A model generated the notes under the pieces. It saw only the letters and a program-made list of their open reading frames with translations, was not told where the DNA came from and did no database searches. Source: Propionibacteriales bacterium (GTDB lineage Bacteria > Actinomycetota > Actinomycetes > Propionibacteriales > Nocardioidaceae). Taken from it: 55,025 bases of DNA. Location: NCBI GenBank assembly GCA_025929075.1, contig JAICMS010000004.1, positions 1 through 55,025 on the forward strand, read 5' to 3'. Position 1 is the first letter of the stretch, and each line of letters opens with the position of its first letter. A program made the position numbers and the translations under genes. This document shows, piece by piece, positions 26,248-34,135 of this stretch.

Positions 26248-28566
26248 TCACCCGGCCGACCCCGCCGGACCGGAGACCGGCCGGAACCGCCGCAGCCGAA
26301 GGCTGTTGGTGACCACGAAGACCGAGGAGAAGGCCATCGCCGCCCCGGCGATGAGCGGGTTCAGCAACCCGAGACCAGCAAGTGGAAGCGCTGCGAGGTT
26401 GTACCCGAACGCCCAGACCAGGTTGCCCTTGATCGTCCGCAGGGTGCGGCGTGACAGCCGGATCGCATCGACGGTCGAGCCTAGGTCGTCTCGGACCAAC
26501 GTCAGGTCGCTTGCCTCGATGGCGACGTCGGTCCCGGATCCCATGCTGATGCCGAGATCGGCAGTGGCGAGTGCCGCGGCGTCATTGACCCCGTCGCCCA
26601 CCATCGCGACCACCGCACCGGCCTCTTGGAGCCGCCGTACGACGGCTGCCTTGTCGGCCGGCAGCACCTCGGCCACGACCTCGTCGATCCCGACCTGATC
26701 GGCCACCCGTCGGGCCGAGCGGGCGTTGTCGCCTGTGAGCAGGACCGGCCGCAGCCCAAGACCGCGCAGATCGGCCACTGCCTGTGCGCTGGTCGGCTTG
26801 AGCCTGTCGGCGACGACGACCAACCCGCGCGCGACGCCGTCCCAGCCGATCGCCACGACCGTCCTGCCGATCGCCTCCTCGTCGGCCAGGCCGGCTTCGA
26901 GCGCCTCCGGCAACGGCTGGCTCCACTCCTCGGCGAGCCACTTCGGCCGGCCCGCGACCACGGCGCGGCCCTGGACAACGCCGGAGACACCGAGGCCCTG
27001 CCAGGACCGGAACTCAGCCACCTCGGGCAGCGGGTCAGCCAGCCGGGCCGCGGCGCCCCGAGCGACAGCGGCACCGATCGGGTGCTCCGAGGCACCCTCG
27101 ATGGCCGCCGCATACGACAGCAGTTCGGACTCCTCAACATCGGCCGCCGGAAGCACCGCGACAAGCTCCATCCGACCCGTGGTGACCGTCCCGGTCTTGT
27201 CCAAGATGACCGTGTCGACCTGCCGAGTGGCCTCCAGCACCTCCGGGCCCTTGATCACCACGCCGAGCTGGGCACCGCGACCGGTGCCCACGAGCAGCGC
27301 GGTCGGCGTCGCCAGACCGAGCGCGCACGGACAGGCGATGATCAACACTGCGACAGCCGCGGTGAAAGCTGCCGAGGCGGAATGACCCGTAAGCAGCCAG
27401 GCCCCCAGCGTGCCCACCGCCAGAGCGATGACCACGGGGACGAAGACCGCGGACACCCGGTCCGCCAGGCGCTGCACCGGCGCCTTGCCGCTTTGCGCAG
27501 CGGCCACCAACTGGGCGATCTGCGCCAGTTGCGTCTCGCTGCCGACGCGCGCCGCTCGAACGACCAGCCGACCACCGGCGTTGACCGTCCCCCCCACGAC
27601 CTCCGCACCGGGGCCGACCTCGACCGGGACCGGCTCGCCGGTCACCATCGAGGCGTCCACGGCCGACGTACCGGACTCGACCCGTCCGTCGGTTGCGATC
27701 TTCTCGCCCGGCCGTACGACGAACAGGTCGCCCACTGTCAGGTCGGAGATCGGAATCCGCGCCTCCGACAGGACTCCGTCGGTCTCGTGGAGCACCGCAA
27801 CGTCTTTGGCGCCGAGGTCGAGCAGCGCCCGCATTGCCGCGCCGGACGCCCGCTTGGCGCGAGCCTCGAGGTAGCGGCCGGCCAGCAGGAACGTGGTCAC
27901 GGCAGCAGCCACTTCCAGATACAGGTGGGGTGCGCCGGACTGGTCCGTCGAGAGCAGTTCGAACCGCATCCGCATGCCGGGCATGCCGGCGTCGGTGAAG
28001 AACAGCGCCCAACAGGACCAGAGGAAGGCAGCCCCCACCCCGACCGAGATCAGCGTGTCCATGGTGGCGGCGCCGTGCCGGGCGTTGAGGAACGCTGCAC
28101 GGTGGAACGGCAGCGCTCCCCAGATCGCGACCGGCGCCGCCAGGGCGAATACCAGCCACTGCCAGTTGCGGAACTGAAACGTGGGCGTCATCGACAGGAC
28201 GACAACGGGCACACTCAGCGCGGTCGACACGAACAGGCGCTGCCGCCAGCGGGCTGCTTCAGACTGCTCCGCTTCGGGTTCCCGGCGGCCGTCTGCGTGG
28301 TGGTCCGGCGATGGTGCCTCGATGACACTGGCCGAGTAACCGATGCGCTCGACGACGTCGACCAGGTCCTGCGTCGTCACGGTCGTCGGAGCCGACACGT
28401 GCGCCCGCTCGGTGGCGAAGTTGACCGAGGCGGAGACGCCCTCGAGCTTGTTGAGCTTCTTCTCGATGCGCGCCGCACACGACGCACACGTCATCCCGCC
28501 GATGTCCAGCTCGACGGTGTCTGTCGCAGCCTCCGCGGTTGCGCTAGGCGGTTGCGGGCGAGTCAT
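26248..28566 (-). CDS. copA: Copper-translocating P-type ATPase
   Basis: A 772-residue P1B-ATPase exporting Cu(I). In order: one N-terminal HMA domain with GMTCASC near residue 25; membrane helices; the actuator loop with MVTGEPVPV; the CPC metal site in IIACPCALG near 412; the phosphorylated Asp in ILDKTGT near 454; SEHPIG (HP motif); GDGVND near 645; and two final helices. CPC together with YN and MxxS-type segments in the last helices ([19 protein letters not shown]) points to Cu+. Its ATG overlaps the stop of the copper chaperone gene by 4 bases. Confidence 0.95.
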
Positions 28567-28790
28567 CCGTTACCCTCCGTCAGCCGGTAGTCGCCGGCCT
28601 CGTCCAGAGCGGCAGCCACCTGATCGCGCCCCAGCGGTTCGGCGCTCGTGACTCGCACACTCGACACTCCCCCGGGCACCAGTTCGACAGCCACGTCGTC
28701 AACTCCCACGAGCTCGCGTAGCTCCGCGGCGACGGCGGCTTCGCAGTGCGAGCAAGTCATCCCGGTGACCTGGAACGTCTGAACAGTCAT
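28563..28790 (-). CDS. copZ: Copper chaperone, heavy-metal-associated domain (CopZ type)
   Basis: A 75-residue HMA-fold protein with the metal site GMTCSHC at residues 10-16 and a C-terminal [15 protein letters not shown], the normal length of CopZ chaperones that hand Cu(I) to CopA. GGGAG precedes the ATG by seven bases. It sits between csoR and copA, all in one direction with a 13-base gap and a 4-base overlap. Confidence 0.92.
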
Positions 28791-28803
28791 TGGTCTACTC
28801 CCA

Positions 28804-29103
28804 TCAGGATCGGACGAGCCGGGCGATGGCGGCCGAGGCCTCGTCGAGCTTGGCGTCGGCATCCGGACCGCCCCTGCGGGCGGCATCGGCGACGCAGTGC
28901 CGCAGGTGGTCATCGAGCAGGGTGAGGGCGACCTGTTCCAGTGCCCGCGTCGCAGCGGACACCTGGGTGAGGACGTCGATGCAGTAGGACTCGTCGTCGA
29001 CCATCCGCTGCAGCCCACGCACCTGGCCTTCGATCCGGCGCAGTCGGTTGCGGAGTGCGGCCTTGTCGTCGACGTACCCCGGCTGCGTGTGTGCGCGGCT
29101 CAT
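28804..29103 (-). CDS. csoR: Copper-sensing repressor
   Basis: A 99-residue all-helical CsoR/RcnR-family repressor. The Cu(I) ligands are all present as Cys in SYCIDVL, then His and Cys in HLRHC (the C-H-C set). The N-terminal half carries RNRLRRIEGQVRGLQRMV, the DNA-contacting helix of the family. A strong ribosome site (AAAGGAGG) precedes the ATG. It controls itself and copZ-copA from the operator at 29134-29150, releasing DNA when Cu(I) binds (family knowledge). Confidence 0.95.
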   Translation of the reverse strand: MSRAHTQPGYVDDKAALRNRLRRIEGQVRGLQRMVDDESYCIDVLTQVSAATRALEQVALTLLDDHLRHCVADAARRGGPDADAKLDEASAAIARLVRS

Positions 29104-29130
29104 GAAGTCCTCCTTTGAACGTCAAGCCTC

Positions 29131-29159
29131 ATCATACCCCCTGTGGGTATTCCGCTCAA
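29131..29159 (-). promoter_or_regulatory. csoR-copZ-copA promoter with CsoR operator
   Basis: Minus-strand -35 TTGAGC (29159-29154) and -10 TATGAT (29136-29131) are 17 bases apart, a near-consensus promoter. Between and overlapping them lies ATACCC-N5-GGGTAT (29134-29150), a perfect 17-bp palindrome of the CsoR-box type, so bound CsoR would block polymerase. Confidence 0.85.
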
Positions 29160-29193
29160 ATCACAACCACATGGCACCGAGGCAAGCGAGGGC

Positions 29194-29199
29194 TACGGT
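29194..29199 (+). promoter_or_regulatory. -10 box of the PPOX-like gene (leaderless type)
   Basis: TACGGT, 7 bases before the GTG at 29207, no ribosome site. Confidence 0.5.
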
Positions 29200-29206
29200 T
29201 AGCCGC

Positions 29207-29734
29207 GTGCACGAAACCGAAGAAGAGATCAGGGGGTTGCAGCGCCTGCTCGACCACTCGCACGCGCGGTCGAGCGAGCACCTACGCGGAATCATCAACG
29301 CAGACCGCCGGCTGAGCGCCACAGACGTCGCGGCCCTCTTAACCGGCATGAAGGTCCTCTCGGTAGCCACCGTCACCGCAGGTGGTGAACCCCGGATCAG
29401 CGCGCTGGATGGTCACTTCCTGCACGGCACCTGGACGTTCAGCACGAGCGGTACGGCGATCAAGGCCCGCCATCTGCGGGTCCGGCCAGCCGTCAGCGTG
29501 GCCCACATCGACAACGAGGAACTGGCCGTCTTCGCGCACGGCGTCGTGGAGCGGATGGAGCCGGGAGAGCCGGGCTGGGACGCAACCATCGAGCACTGGA
29601 CCAACCACTACGGAAGCTCCCCGCTGGGCTGGGGGCCGGAGATCGTCATGTACCGGATGCGGGCACAGTGGATGGTCGGCTACGCCTGGAAGCGCGACGA
29701 GCTGCTTGCCAAGCGGGGTGTCCGCAGTCAGTGA
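29207..29734 (+). CDS. Pyridoxamine 5'-phosphate oxidase-like (split beta-barrel FMN-binding) protein
   Basis: A 175-residue protein of the flavin/F420-binding split-barrel superfamily: KVLSVATVTAGGEPRISALDGHFLHGTWTFSTSGTAIKARHLRVRPAVSVAH is the strand set of the barrel, and the C-terminal part has WGPEIVMYRMRAQWMVGYAWKRDELL. An N-terminal helical stretch of about 40 residues precedes the barrel. Cofactor (FMN or F420) and substrate cannot be assigned. GTG start, leaderless pattern. Its end overlaps the convergent flippase gene by 7 bases. Confidence 0.82.
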   Translation: MHETEEEIRGLQRLLDHSHARSSEHLRGIINADRRLSATDVAALLTGMKVLSVATVTAGGEPRISALDGHFLHGTWTFSTSGTAIKARHLRVRPAVSVAHIDNEELAVFAHGVVERMEPGEPGWDATIEHWTNHYGSSPLGWGPEIVMYRMRAQWMVGYAWKRDELLAKRGVRSQ

Positions 29735-30792
29735 GGAGCCACACTCGCGCCGACCTCTGAGGAGGCGGAGCGCCGGCGCCGGCGCCGCTCGGCCACAATC
29801 GACAGATAGGCGATCAGTCCGGTGGGTAGGGGAAACCAATAGTTGAACAACCGCCAGGTCAGGACGCCGAGCACCGCCGTGCTCCCCGGCGTGCCGAAGC
29901 TGGTCAGGACCGGGACAAGCGCTCCCTCGACGACGCCGAGGCCCGCGGGACTGATCGGCAGCGCCGCGACGACCTGGGCCAGGCAGAACGCCGCCATCAG
30001 CAGGATGAAGCCCGGCGGATGCCGGAAGGCGTGCATCGACGCCCACAGGCAGGCCAGGTCGAAGAGCCAGTTTCCGAGCGACCAGGCGGCCACCCAGGCC
30101 AGCCGCGCCGGTGTGGCGATGAGTGAGCGCAGGTGCTTGCCGAGCTCGTCCACGACCCGACCGACGCGCTCTTCGCTGGCGGCGGGAATCCAGCGGGACA
30201 GCTTGCTGACCCGGCGCGCCCACAGCACGATCCGGCGGATGAGGTCTGGTCGGGCACCGAGCAGGACAGCCATGGTCACCACCGACGCGACGATCACCGT
30301 GCCGGCGGCGACCAGACCGATCGTGGCGGCGGACTGGCCGTAGACGACGATCTCGAGCGCGAGCGAGACCCCGAGAAGCGTTTGCAGGAGGACGCTCGAC
30401 AACAGCGTCTGGGTGATCTTGACGAACCCGGACTCGACTCCGCTGACCCCTTCCTCCTCGAGCAGTTCGTAGCCGAGCGCCGTCCCGGCAGCGGCGCCGA
30501 TCGGTACCGCGTGACTCAACGCCACGGTCACCAGGTCGACCCGGATGATGCGGGGAAAGCTCGGCCGGTTGCCCGGCTCGATCAGCGACCAGGTGACCAC
30601 GCTGAATGCCAGCAGCGAGAGCGCCTGTGCGACGAAGGCGATGACCAGGTACCACACCCCTACCCGATGGAGGTTTCCCAACGACCGCAGTGCCTCCTCG
30701 ACGCGAGGTGCGAGGAAGAAGCCGGCAACGGTGAGGGTCGCGACCAGCAGTGCCCACCTGAGGAGCCGGCCGACGCGCCACCGCTTGGTCAC
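29728..30792 (-). CDS. Lysylphosphatidylglycerol synthase-type / flippase-like integral membrane protein
   Basis: A 354-residue membrane protein of the UPF0104/LPG-synthase-TM type, with about eight hydrophobic segments and the family region VRVDLVTVALSHAVPIGAAAGTALGYELL plus PISPAGLGVVEGALVPVL. It lacks the soluble aminoacyl-transferase domain of MprF, so a lipid flippase-like role is more likely than lysyl transfer. The start GTG overlaps the glycosyltransferase stop by four bases (GTGA), making it the third gene of a coupled PAP2-GT-flippase operon. It ends in a strongly basic Arg run before a short tail. Confidence 0.87.
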   Translation of the reverse strand: MTKRWRVGRLLRWALLVATLTVAGFFLAPRVEEALRSLGNLHRVGVWYLVIAFVAQALSLLAFSVVTWSLIEPGNRPSFPRIIRVDLVTVALSHAVPIGAAAGTALGYELLEEEGVSGVESGFVKITQTLLSSVLLQTLLGVSLALEIVVYGQSAATIGLVAAGTVIVASVVTMAVLLGARPDLIRRIVLWARRVSKLSRWIPAASEERVGRVVDELGKHLRSLIATPARLAWVAAWSLGNWLFDLACLWASMHAFRHPPGFILLMAAFCLAQVVAALPISPAGLGVVEGALVPVLTSFGTPGSTAVLGVLTWRLFNYWFPLPTGLIAYLSIVAERRRRRRSASSEVGASVAPH

Positions 30793-31967
30793 GAGCGCTC
30801 GCCGGCCTTGGCATCCCCGGCTGCCGCGTCGCCGGACGGGGGCGGCTCCTCACCTCGCAGCAACGCGGCCAACCGCGCTGTCGCGGCCTCCCAGGTCCAG
30901 TGCTGCAACACCCACTGTCGGCCGGCCCGGCCGATCGCAGCAGCGCGGTCCCGGTCGGTGAGCAGGGCCAGCAGAGCCTCCGAGATCGCCTCGGCCCGCG
31001 TGGCGTCGACCAGCAGGCCGGTCTCACCGTCCTTCAGCGAGGCAGGACTCCCGCCGGACCGCCCGACCACCACGGGGAGCCCGGCCGCCGACGCCTCCAG
31101 CGTCGACAGCCCGAGACCCTCCGTCTGCAGGCCGCGTCGGTCGTCGCGGCTGGGAAAGACGAACACGTCCGCTGCGGCGTAGTAGCCCGGGAGTAACTCC
31201 GGTGCGATCGGACCGGTCACGACGACGGAGCCGGGAAACCGCCTGGCCGCCTCATCGGACAGTCCCGCGAGCATCGGCCCGTCGCCGACGATGACCAGCT
31301 TCGCCTGCGGCACCCGCGCCAACACCGTCGGCCATGCCTGGAGCAGCAGGTCATGACCCTTGCGGCGGACCAGCCGCGACACACTCAGGACCACGGGGCC
31401 GCCGCCGAGGTGGTGCCGTTCCTTGATCGTGGAGGCGTCGACGTACGGGCTGAACCTGTCTGTGTCCACGCCGCCCGCGAGACGGTGCAGCGCTGCCCGC
31501 CCGGCGAAGACGGGCTCCAGCTCCGCCAGCGTGGCTGGACTGAGGTACGTCACGGTGTCGATCGTCCGGCTCACCGCTCGCAGGGCCAGCCGGGTGGGCG
31601 CAGCCCGGATCCAGCCGATCTCCTGCCCGTGGGTCGAGGCGACCAGCCGCTTCACTCCTGAGCGCCGCACCAGCGGCGCATACATCCCGAACGGCGCCAT
31701 CGCGGTCAGCCAGGCTGTCTGGATGCCGTACCTCTTGACCAGGGCCCGAAGTCCGCGAAAGAGCAAATAGCCGTGTCGGCGGACGACCGGAAACCCGAGG
31801 CCCGCGTCGAACTCTGCGGCGCCGGGCCAGGACGGGGCGACGACCACCAGTCGGTCCGCCTGCAGTCGCCTGACGAACTCCCAGGTGAAGGTCTGCACAC
31901 CGCCGGGCTCTGGAGGGAAGTGCCCGGTGACGACGACGGTTGGCGGGATGGACGGCGGGTCACTCAT
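30789..31967 (-). CDS. Glycosyltransferase family 4 protein (PimB-like)
   Basis: A 392-residue GT-B enzyme. The N-terminal lobe opens with VVVTGHFPPEPGGVQTFTWEFV, typical of GT4 mannosyltransferases; the C-terminal lobe has SVSRLVRRKGHDLLLQAW, VIVGDGPM and the donor-site E-x7-E in TEGLGLSTLEASAAGLPVVVG. This resembles PimB-type phosphatidylinositol mannosyltransferases, but donor and acceptor are not proven. The ATG overlaps the PAP2 stop by four bases, and its own stop overlaps the flippase start, so all three should be made together at the membrane. Confidence 0.9.
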   Translation of the reverse strand: MSDPPSIPPTVVVTGHFPPEPGGVQTFTWEFVRRLQADRLVVVAPSWPGAAEFDAGLGFPVVRRHGYLLFRGLRALVKRYGIQTAWLTAMAPFGMYAPLVRRSGVKRLVASTHGQEIGWIRAAPTRLALRAVSRTIDTVTYLSPATLAELEPVFAGRAALHRLAGGVDTDRFSPYVDASTIKERHHLGGGPVVLSVSRLVRRKGHDLLLQAWPTVLARVPQAKLVIVGDGPMLAGLSDEAARRFPGSVVVTGPIAPELLPGYYAAADVFVFPSRDDRRGLQTEGLGLSTLEASAAGLPVVVGRSGGSPASLKDGETGLLVDATRAEAISEALLALLTDRDRAAAIGRAGRQWVLQHWTWEAATARLAALLRGEEPPPSGDAAAGDAKAGERS

Positions 31968-32794
31968 GTCTGTGCCGACTCAGAGGCAGGCTCCCCGACC
32001 GGTCCTGGGGAGGGTAACGAGGCCTCGGTCGGTACGGCGAGTGGTGGAGCAGTCAGTGATGGTGCACGCGCCAATCGAGCCCGGCGCACCCGGGTCACGA
32101 CCCGGCCGCGCGCCCACTCGATGCCGAGGGCGAGCGCCACGGCCAGGCCACCGGCGACCACGTCGAGCACATAGTGGTTGCCGGTCGCCACCACGACGAC
32201 AGCCGTGACGGCCAAGTGCAGCAGGGCGAGCCCGTAGCCGAGCCGGCTCGCCTTGACCCGGAGCGTCACCACGGACACCCACACGGCCCAACCGATGTGC
32301 AGGCTGGGCATCGCGGCGTACTGGTCTGCGCTGTTGGCGACGGTGCCGCCGCCCCACGAGAGGATCGGGTGGTGGATGGCGACGACGTCGGCGAAGCCGC
32401 TGCCCGGGAGCAGCCGCGGCGGAGTGGTCGGCCACAGTGCGAAGCAGGCGATGGCCAGCGCGGTCGTCCAGACCAGCGTGTTGCGCGCCCATGGGTAGTC
32501 CTTGGGGCGGCGCCACCAGGCCCAGGCCAGCACGATCATGGTCGTGACGATGTAAGTCGTCGCGTACTCCCACGCTGCGAGCCAGCCGAGCACGGGGCGG
32601 ACAGCCAGCCACTTGTCGGTGACCAGCTCGACGTCGAGATGCATCCACCGCTCGACGGCAAGCAGTGTGCGACCTCGAGCATCGGCCGCGCCGACGTCGG
32701 CGTCGAGCACATGGGCTACAACAAGATAGACGCACCACAGGGCCAAGCCAGCCACGATCTGCAGCAACCCGTGCGTCAGCCGGCTGCGACCCAT
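31964..32794 (-). CDS. PAP2 superfamily membrane phosphatase/transferase
   Basis: A 276-residue protein with about six membrane segments. PAP2 catalytic motifs are MPSLHIGWAVW and the histidine motif TGNHYVLDVVAGG, together with the GSGFADVVAIHHP loop. The architecture matches the inositolphosphoryl-transferase-like PAP2_3 group. The ATG at 32794 has GAAGGGG seven bases upstream; a TTG one codon earlier is less likely. First gene of the PAP2-GT4-flippase operon; a role in making or moving a phospholipid-linked sugar is an inference. Confidence 0.88.
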   Translation of the reverse strand: MGRSRLTHGLLQIVAGLALWCVYLVVAHVLDADVGAADARGRTLLAVERWMHLDVELVTDKWLAVRPVLGWLAAWEYATTYIVTTMIVLAWAWWRRPKDYPWARNTLVWTTALAIACFALWPTTPPRLLPGSGFADVVAIHHPILSWGGGTVANSADQYAAMPSLHIGWAVWVSVVTLRVKASRLGYGLALLHLAVTAVVVVATGNHYVLDVVAGGLAVALALGIEWARGRVVTRVRRARLARAPSLTAPPLAVPTEASLPSPGPVGEPASESAQT

Positions 32795-32893
32795 CAAGCG
32801 TCCCCTTCATGCTTGGGCATCGATCGCAAGGTTCCCGTTCACCGCGACGCTACCAGCACGATCGGACGATTCCCGCGACCGCGCGGAAACGGG

Positions 32894-33049
32894 TCAGACG
32901 AGCATCATGACGTACGGCGTGAGGTAGATGTAGAGGAAGAGCAGACCGAGGACGGGCGTCGCCTCGGCGATCCGCCCGACGGCGATCAGGTACACCCCCG
33001 CTGCGATGATCAGTATCTCGACCACCGACTTCATGATCATCGGCGCCAC
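32894..33049 (-). CDS. Small membrane protein, 51 residues
   Basis: The sequence from VAPMIMKSVVEILIIAAG to the end TPYVMMLV has two hydrophobic stretches (about residues 9-26 and 33-49) separated by VGRIAEAT, so a hairpin-like membrane protein is likely. I do not recognise a family. The start may be the GTG at 33049 (AGGAGG four bases upstream) or the ATG at 33040, which overlaps the stop of a 12-codon open frame. It stands divergent from the rhodanese gene. The upstream extension of this frame on the opposite strand of the rhodanese gene is not coding. Confidence 0.55.
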   Translation of the reverse strand: MAPMIMKSVVEILIIAAGVYLIAVGRIAEATPVLGLLFLYIYLTPYVMMLV

Positions 33050-33075: not shown

Positions 33076-33226
33076 GAGTCCTCCCTCGGTCGTTGAACAC
33101 ATGACCGCGGTGGTTGCTGACTCCACGGTACCCACTACGGGCCGGCCGACACCAGTGCCCACGCCCGCGGGAAGATGAGGGGAGTCGGCGTCGTTGCCGA
33201 GAGTCGAGCGAAGGAGGTGCGTCTGG

Positions 33227-34135
33227 ATGGCGCTGCCCTACGATCCGGACCCGAAGTTTGCGGAGTACTCCGATCCCGGTCGCCTCGTGAGCACGAGCTG
33301 GCTGGCCGAGCACCTCGGCGACGAGGGCCTGGCCGTCGTAGAGAGCGACGAGGACGTGCTGCTCTACGAGACCGGCCACATCCCGGGGTCGGTGAAGGTC
33401 GACTGGCATCTGGACCTCAACGACCGGGTGAACCGCGACTACGTCGACGGTGAGCGGTTCGCAGAATTGATGGGCTCGCGGGGCATCGGGCGGGACACGA
33501 CCATCGTCGTGTACGGGGACAAGAGCAACTGGTGGGCGGCGTACGCCCTCTGGGTGTTCACCCTCTTCGGCCACCCCGACGTCCGGCTGCTCGACGGTGG
33601 ACGCGCGAAGTGGCAAGCCGAGGGCCGGCCGATGACGACCGACGCGGCCAAGCCGAGCCCTGTCGACTACCCGGTTGTCGAGCGCCAGGACGATGACATC
33701 CGGGCTTTCAAGGACGAGGTCCTTGCCCACCTCGGTGAGCCCATCGTCGACGTCCGCTCCGCGCCCGAATACACCGGCGAGCGCACTCATATGCCCGACT
33801 ACCCCGACGAAGGCGCCTTGCGCGGCGGACACATCCCTGGCGCGAAGTCCGTGCCATGGGGACGGGCGGCCGCAGAGGACGGCACCTTCAAGGACCGGGC
33901 CTCGCTTGAGGCGATCTACCAGGAAGAGCAAGGCCTGTCGCCGGGCGACGACGTCATCGCCTACTGCCGGATCGGCGAGCGGTCGAGTCACACCTGGTTC
34001 GTGTTGCAGCACCTGCTCGGGTTCGGCAAGGTCCGCAACTACGACGGGTCGTGGACCGAGTGGGGCAACTCCGTTCGGGTTCCGATCGTGAAGGGGGAAG
34101 ACCCCGGTTCGGTGCCTGGAGCCCGGGAGGTTTGA
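33227..34135 (+). CDS. Sulfurtransferase, tandem rhodanese domains (SseA/CysA type)
   Basis: A 302-residue protein with two rhodanese domains (about 20-140 and 165-290). The second holds the active-site loop CRIGERS, with the persulfide-carrying Cys; the first lacks it, as usual for thiosulfate sulfurtransferases. WG-type C-terminal motif: [12 protein letters not shown]. The ATG at 33227 has AAGGAGGTG eight bases upstream. Its TGA overlaps the sufE start (TGATG), so sulfur handed from thiosulfate may be passed on to a SufE-type carrier. Confidence 0.93.

Follow-up and report, generated by a model that had tools for sequence, protein, structure and literature searches.

Within a 55,025-nucleotide stretch of a Propionibacteriales bacterium genome (Nocardioidaceae; assembly GCA_025929075.1, contig JAICMS010000004.1, positions 1 to 55,025; hereafter the window), three minus-strand genes encoding a PAP2-type membrane protein, a GT4 glycosyltransferase and a flippase-like membrane protein follow one another through two 4-base overlaps:

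31964..32794, minus strand, PAP2_3 membrane phosphatase/phosphotransferase-type protein (P0001; PF14378)
31964..31967, minus strand, ATGA overlap of the PAP2 stop and the GT4 start, seen in the sequence
30789..31967, minus strand, GT4 glycosyltransferase of a flippase-linked sister family of PimB' (P0002; PF00534)
30789..30792, minus strand, GTGA overlap of the GT4 stop and the flippase start, seen in the sequence
29728..30792, minus strand, LPG_synthase_TM/TIGR00374 flippase-like membrane protein (P0003; PF03706)

The first-pass annotation had described these open reading frames (ORFs), with a PAP2 start at 32794 and the ATGA and GTGA joints, as one unit, and both the positions and the unit were borne out. 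The ATG at 32794, which has GGGGA 6 nt upstream, is the better start and is preferred over the in-frame TTG directly before it at 32797, the longer option. A divergent rhodanese gene (33194-34135) lies upstream of the operon, which ends in a 7-base tail-to-tail overlap with a plus-strand ORF (29048-29734) that weakly matches the PNPOx family. Promoter and terminator scans gave nothing exceeding shuffles. A crude set of the window's genes contains 25 co-directional neighbour pairs, of which 6, including the two joints described here, have a −4 overlap, so that we rejected the view that the overlaps are notable in themselves; being this frequent, they indicate an operon and nothing beyond. The PAP2, GT4 and flippase-like genes are thus one operon.

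The GT4 protein matches PF00534 (Glycos_transf_1) at 1.1e-37, and its best solved relatives are the Corynebacterium glutamicum PimB' structures 3okc (1.6e-61) and 3oka (1.7e-61). Common to it and the PimB' lineage are R198, K203, E283 and E291, which we take to be the conserved Arg, Lys, Glu and Glu of the GT4 donor site. What it lacks is an N-D-[FY]PP-R signature, derived in this analysis from the 71 GT4 loci without flippase described below: the window protein reads TGHFPPE at this site, having lost N15, D16 and R20. A second PimB'-like gene lies elsewhere in the same genome, at C38, beside an NlpC/P60 gene, a neighbourhood resembling that of C. glutamicum, in which cg2400 (PimB') adjoins cg2401, encoding a putative secreted peptidoglycan-lytic protein (PMC7775120). 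No NlpC/P60 gene was found within 6 kb of the window GT4, so that the PimB' gene order is absent there. Because the genome keeps another PimB'-like gene in the PimB' gene order, the window GT4 is, as judged from its sequence, a paralogue in a sister family of PimB' and not PimB' itself. The earlier label of a PimB-like mannosyltransferase thus holds for its nearest solved relative, but not for the identity of the protein, a paralogue that lacks the PimB' signature and whose genome has another PimB'-like gene.

To set this GT4 among its homologues (258 of the 394 genomes of the class have one at E≤1e-60), 96 distinct loci were collected in three rounds (36 first fetches including the window, then 20, then 40), a non-random sample partly picked as second copies, from which the distant GT4s of the window's own genome (L077-L082) and 17 loci duplicated under a second id had been dropped. 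The signature was carried by 71 loci, the final count allowing F or Y (L186, TNDYPPR, and L032, TGHYPPD, were read by eye), and none of the 71 has a same-strand adjacent flippase gene, with the reservation that three of them end soon after the GT4 (L085 after 3 bases, L239 after 473 and L100 after 595), where a partner could escape notice. The other 25 loci lack the signature, and every one has a flippase gene adjacent or fused. The GT4-flippase link therefore exceeds chance (25/25 versus 0/71). The signature site reads TGH[FY]PP in the window, L032 and L033, and ADKFPP in the other 22 linked loci, all of family f21; altogether the linked loci span four families (f1, f17, f21 and f26). In a 50-locus GT4 tree, for which 6 additional near-copies had been removed, one branch (95/95) splits 19 flippase-linked loci from 31 others, and 0 of 500 label shuffles came out as low; the rows with an NlpC/P60 neighbour and the own C38 copy fall on the non-linked side, and the window row is long-branched, making its exact position within the linked group less sure. 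Of the 19 junctions read between the two genes, that of the window among them, 11 are GTGA or ATGA (10 of the 18 outside the window), and in one locus the two proteins are a single chain:

L224:374-2938, minus strand, single-ORF fusion of GT4 and LPG_synthase_TM, 854 aa

The partner of this GT4, P0003, matches PF03706 (LPG_synthase_TM) at 3e-32 (112.7 bits, cut-off 33.4) and TIGR00374 at 3.3e-27 (95.8 bits, cut-off 43.2). As the first-pass annotation had proposed, it is an LPG-synthase-type protein without the catalytic soluble domain: PF03706 is the sole domain of its 354 aa, the aminoacyl-phosphatidylglycerol synthase (aminoacyl-transfer) domain is absent, and the MprF model NF033480 gives 63.7 bits against a cut-off of 600. 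A sequence search of solved structures returned no real match, and with its AlphaFold2 (AF2) model (predicted local distance difference test, pLDDT, 87.7) the PDB folds at E≤0.001 are MprF entries only. It is also the sole PF03706 match found in its own draft genome (2.69 Mb, 93.9% complete). Going by the modelled fold, P0003 probably carries the lipid product of the GT4 across the membrane. The linked flippases are not one clade: in a 35-row tree with several long branches, the linkage label needs at least 2 changes by the starred branches alone. We infer that the GT4 family acquired flippase-type partners repeatedly, or exchanged them, and either would favour function over hitch-hiking. Seen from the flippase side, 33 further loci were read out of 49 P0003-like matches, and only one of them has a nearby P0002-like GT4 (L204, 7.7e-41); the remaining P0003-like loci whose neighbourhoods were read showed no P0002-like GT4; since the P0002 query misses distant GT4s, loci labelled 'no GT4' or 'solo' are to be read as having no P0002-like GT4.

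The PAP2 protein is a clear PF14378 (PAP2_3) member (3.7e-49, 167.6 bits, cut-off 27), in which R128, S165, H167, H208 and D212 are invariant across an alignment of 30 sequences, giving the conserved Arg, His, His and Asp. A sequence search of solved structures found no real match; the solved folds nearest to its AF2 model (pLDDT 89.0) are IPC synthase 9vj4, Aur1-Kei1 9ivc and LpxE 6ebu, the last of which is a phosphatase. Loop charges and the positive-inside rule would place its catalytic residues on the outer face. At 1e-35, PAP2 matches occurred in 48 of the 394 genomes; the best 30 loci were placed in a tree, and wide neighbourhoods were read for 24 (L045 and L144-L166), the window not among them. 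The closest relatives, up to 54% identical, are fusions of PAP2 to a wax ester synthase/diacylglycerol acyltransferase (WS/DGAT), and the window protein sits inside a clade (99/98) whose seven other members are all such fusions (6 by Pfam, the seventh by phmmer). These fusions, and a further relative with a glycosyltransferase-type partner, are:

L115, L116, L117, L118, L119, L120 and L121: PAP2_3-WS/DGAT fusions, HHxxxDG intact in all seven
L151:5201-7798, minus strand, PAP2_3 fused to a diacylglycerol glucosyltransferase/monogalactosyldiacylglycerol (MGDG)-synthase-like domain, 865 aa

The L115-L121 fusions are possibly bifunctional phosphatidate-to-triacylglycerol enzymes, as their sequences would allow. 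The domain fused in L151 matches processive diacylglycerol glucosyltransferase at 2.3e-11 and diglucosyl-diacylglycerol synthase at 6.8e-29, the latter below the cut-off. Pfam places a GT87 domain in front of PAP2_3 in L126 and L127; other rows of their clade were counted as GT87 fusions from ORF length alone. As its relatives are fused to diacylglycerol-consuming enzymes, the comparison suggests that the window PAP2 yields diacylglycerol from phosphatidate, a conversion shown, with a role in triacylglycerol synthesis, for other actinobacterial PAP2 proteins (PMC3599759, PMC8225852).

Whether the PAP2 belongs with the pair was read from both directions. Among the 25 linked loci it adjoins the GT4-flippase pair in the window only, for which reason the idea that the same three proteins travel together was rejected. 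The opposite idea, that PAP2 is a local addition only, was dropped as well, because 5 of the 24 other PAP2 loci combine PF03706, a GT4, a PIG-L deacetylase and PAP2:

L157:2794-6701, PF03706/GT4/PIG-L/PAP2 cluster
L158:5788-10197, PF03706/GT4/PIG-L/PAP2 cluster
L159:2026-6705, PF03706/GT4/PIG-L/PAP2 cluster
L162:4742-8475, PF03706/GT4/PIG-L/PAP2 cluster
L163:4842-8656, PF03706/GT4/PIG-L/PAP2 cluster

In L157, L158 and L159 the genes run in one direction as flippase-GT4-PIG-L-PAP2, and in L162 and L163 GT4 and PAP2 are joined by GTGA, with flippase and PIG-L on the opposite strand; a further locus, L166, has PIG-L, GT4 and PAP2 and no flippase match in the stretch covered. The GT4s of these sister clusters are distant from that of the window (about 1e-16 at best; those of L157-L159 and L162 were found only with the L163 GT4 as query) and about equally near PimA and MshA, and their PIG-L proteins score best to MshB (128 bits, under the cut-off of 224). 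The five PAP2s share a clade (97/93) with a second PAP2 of the window's own genome, at C9, which is without PF03706, GT4 or PIG-L neighbours. The co-occurrence expected by the first-pass annotation is therefore seen for the three families at Pfam level, together with PIG-L, and the same three proteins stand together only in the window; likewise, its picture of a unit for synthesis and flipping stands for GT4 and flippase, which are repeatedly found paired and in one locus fused, and is weaker for PAP2, found with the pair in 1 of 25 loci.

Taken together, these observations lead us to favour, tentatively and at somewhat under an even chance, a reading in which the operon makes one glycolipid and moves the product outward. 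In this scheme, PAP2, with its active site on the outer face, would dephosphorylate phosphatidate to diacylglycerol, which would cross the membrane unaided; the cytosolic GT4 would then glycosylate diacylglycerol, or a glycosyl-diacylglycerol, with a sugar that may be mannose donated by GDP-mannose, as for PimB', sugar and acceptor both being predicted; and the LPG_synthase_TM protein, built like the MprF translocase domain, would bring the glycolipid to the outer leaflet. Several points weigh against this scheme. PAP2 adjoins the pair in 1 of 25 loci, so that PAP2 is not a general supplier of diacylglycerol; the one family f21 accounts for 22 of the 25 linked loci, which hence are not 25 independent cases; and most P0003-type flippase genes have no P0002-like GT4 nearby (1 of 33 with one). 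The genome has one WS/DGAT match, a stand-alone protein on contig C70, which carries no PAP2 match, so the window PAP2 could serve triacylglycerol; the nearest solved PAP2 folds, as far as the model tells, are phosphoinositol transferases; and the MshB-like deacetylase of the sister clusters may fit an inositol lipid equally. The phosphoinositide product suggested earlier is nevertheless not what the related PAP2 fusion partners indicate, as these point to diacylglycerol, with the MshB-like deacetylase still leaving room for an inositol lipid.

Such an inositol lipid would arise if the GT4 glycosylated phosphatidylinositol or its mannosides, PAP2 dephosphorylated phosphatidylinositol phosphate and the flippase exported the product. 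PimB' being the best solved relative of the GT4, with putative donor-side residues common to both, speaks for this route, as does the similarity of the sister-cluster PIG-L to MshB, an inositol-GlcNAc deacetylase, next to a GT4 about equally near PimA and MshA; we still consider it unlikely, since N15, D16 and R20 are absent in all 25 flippase-linked GT4s, the genome has its other PimB'-like gene beside an NlpC/P60 gene, and no signature-bearing locus of the 71 has a flippase. The recurrence of PAP2 with a flippase and another GT4 in 5 of 24 loci raised the weight of this route, and lowered that of a reading in which only GT4 and flippase cooperate and PAP2, as a lipid phosphatase of the triacylglycerol pathway or of general function, has nothing but the transcript in common with them. 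That second reading would explain why PAP2 stands beside the pair in a single linked locus, and it agrees with the kinship to PAP2-WS/DGAT fusions, the WS/DGAT gene elsewhere in the genome and the characterised actinobacterial PAP2 enzymes of triacylglycerol synthesis (PMC3599759, PMC8225852); but the ATGA overlap couples PAP2 to the GT4, the three families recur in those five loci, and one relative is fused to a diacylglycerol glycosyltransferase-like domain, so we hold it to be improbable.

Somewhat less improbable, and still well down the scale, is a PAP2 acting as a phosphotransferase of the Aur1/IPC-synthase type, which would add a phospho-headgroup to the flipped glycolipid on the outer face. 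Its nearest solved folds are IPC synthase 9vj4 and Aur1-Kei1 9ivc, and the loop charges place the catalytic loops outside, where a flipped lipid would arrive; yet LpxE is nearly as close in fold, the closest relatives are fused to diacylglycerol-consuming acyltransferases, and the phosphoinositol dihydroceramide synthase model gives the window PAP2 17.3 bits against an NCBIfam cut-off of 480. We hardly expect the lipid to be a sugar-carrying polyprenyl phosphate of the kind found in the archaeal AglD pathway, with PAP2 recycling the carrier. UPF0104 forms the C-terminal part of AglD, and a flippase role in glycosylation pathways has been proposed for such proteins (PMC5898192), but the GT4 falls in the fold group of PimB', which acts on a glycerolipid acceptor, and those neighbouring genes that were checked included no recognisable oligosaccharyltransferase or polymer genes, the window not having been surveyed for them.

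Operons of a GT4 and a UPF0104 protein are already known. In Pseudomonas aeruginosa, gpgSDF encodes the N-acetylglucosaminyl-phosphatidylglycerol synthase GpgS, the deacetylase GpgD and the UPF0104 protein GpgF and makes glucosaminyl-phosphatidylglycerol (PMC12713373); hexSDF of C. difficile, which has its own paper (PMC10128005), is called analogous to it (PMC12713373). The window operon resembles gpgSDF as a three-gene operon with a GT4 and a predicted flippase of UPF0104 (COG0392) for glycosylation of a membrane lipid (PMC12713373), but its GT4 is a relative of PimB' (the GpgS model NF053787 gives it 49.2 bits, cut-off 480) and its third gene is PAP2 instead of a deacetylase. Closer in content are the sister clusters L157-L159, L162 and L163, which share GT4, deacetylase (here PIG-L) and flippase and, in their sequences, look like a gpgSDF-type kit with PAP2. 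In comparison with PimB', the closest solved structure, the window GT4 keeps R198, K203, E283 and E291 but is without N-D-FPP-R, is coupled to a flippase gene and has another PimB'-like gene in its genome. The membrane domain of P0003 has the MprF fold but no aminoacyl-transfer domain, and the enzyme to modify the lipid is a GT4, encoded by a gene of its own or, in L224, fused to the membrane domain. This fusion shares with AglD an N-terminal glycosyltransferase and a C-terminal UPF0104 domain, the latter family having been proposed as flippases in 2015, but AglD works in archaeal N-glycosylation (PMC5898192), whereas the window and L224 enzymes are GT4s of the PimB' type. The window PAP2, finally, lies within the clade of the actinobacterial PAP2-WS/DGAT fusions, but has no acyltransferase domain and precedes a GT4-flippase pair. 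The catalytic domain of AglD is of the GT2 type.

Around the operon, a possible 48-aa hydrophobic small protein (MIMKSVVEIL...) is encoded at 32894-33040 on the minus strand, 100 nt upstream of PAP2 and perhaps on the same transcript. Nearby, at 26248-29103 on the minus strand, a copper-type P-type ATPase, a heavy-metal-domain protein and a metal-sensing repressor are consecutive, the first two assigned by eye and the repressor by its Trns_repr_metal match. A search of a plasmid collection gave two matches, weak and partial.

A partial search of open-licence literature found nothing on a PAP2-GT4-flippase operon itself. As far as that literature shows, two points are new: a paralogue family coupled to flippases exists within the PimB' group, and PAP2 is a recurrent partner of GT4-flippase sets. 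The fuller proposal, possible although doubtful, is that of a 'glyco-MprF', in which an unnamed PimB' sister family, accompanied at all loci examined by its own translocase as a neighbouring gene or within one polypeptide, would make an undescribed surface glycolipid in actinobacteria, a parallel GT4/PIG-L/PAP2/flippase kit of other actinobacteria would make an amino-sugar glycolipid on the same principle, and PAP2 would be a general partner of lipid glycosylation coupled to a flippase. PimB' homologues tend to be annotated as phosphatidylinositol mannoside (PIM) mannosyltransferases, and the 71/0 versus 0/25 split provides a simple rule of sequence and neighbourhood that separates PimB' from its flippase-coupled paralogues, a family which probably has an acceptor different from that of PimB'. 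Since enzyme and translocase occur paired or within one protein, the family would lend itself to testing cleanly which substrates UPF0104 proteins translocate, and it draws attention to PAP2 proteins as companions of GT4-flippase pairs.

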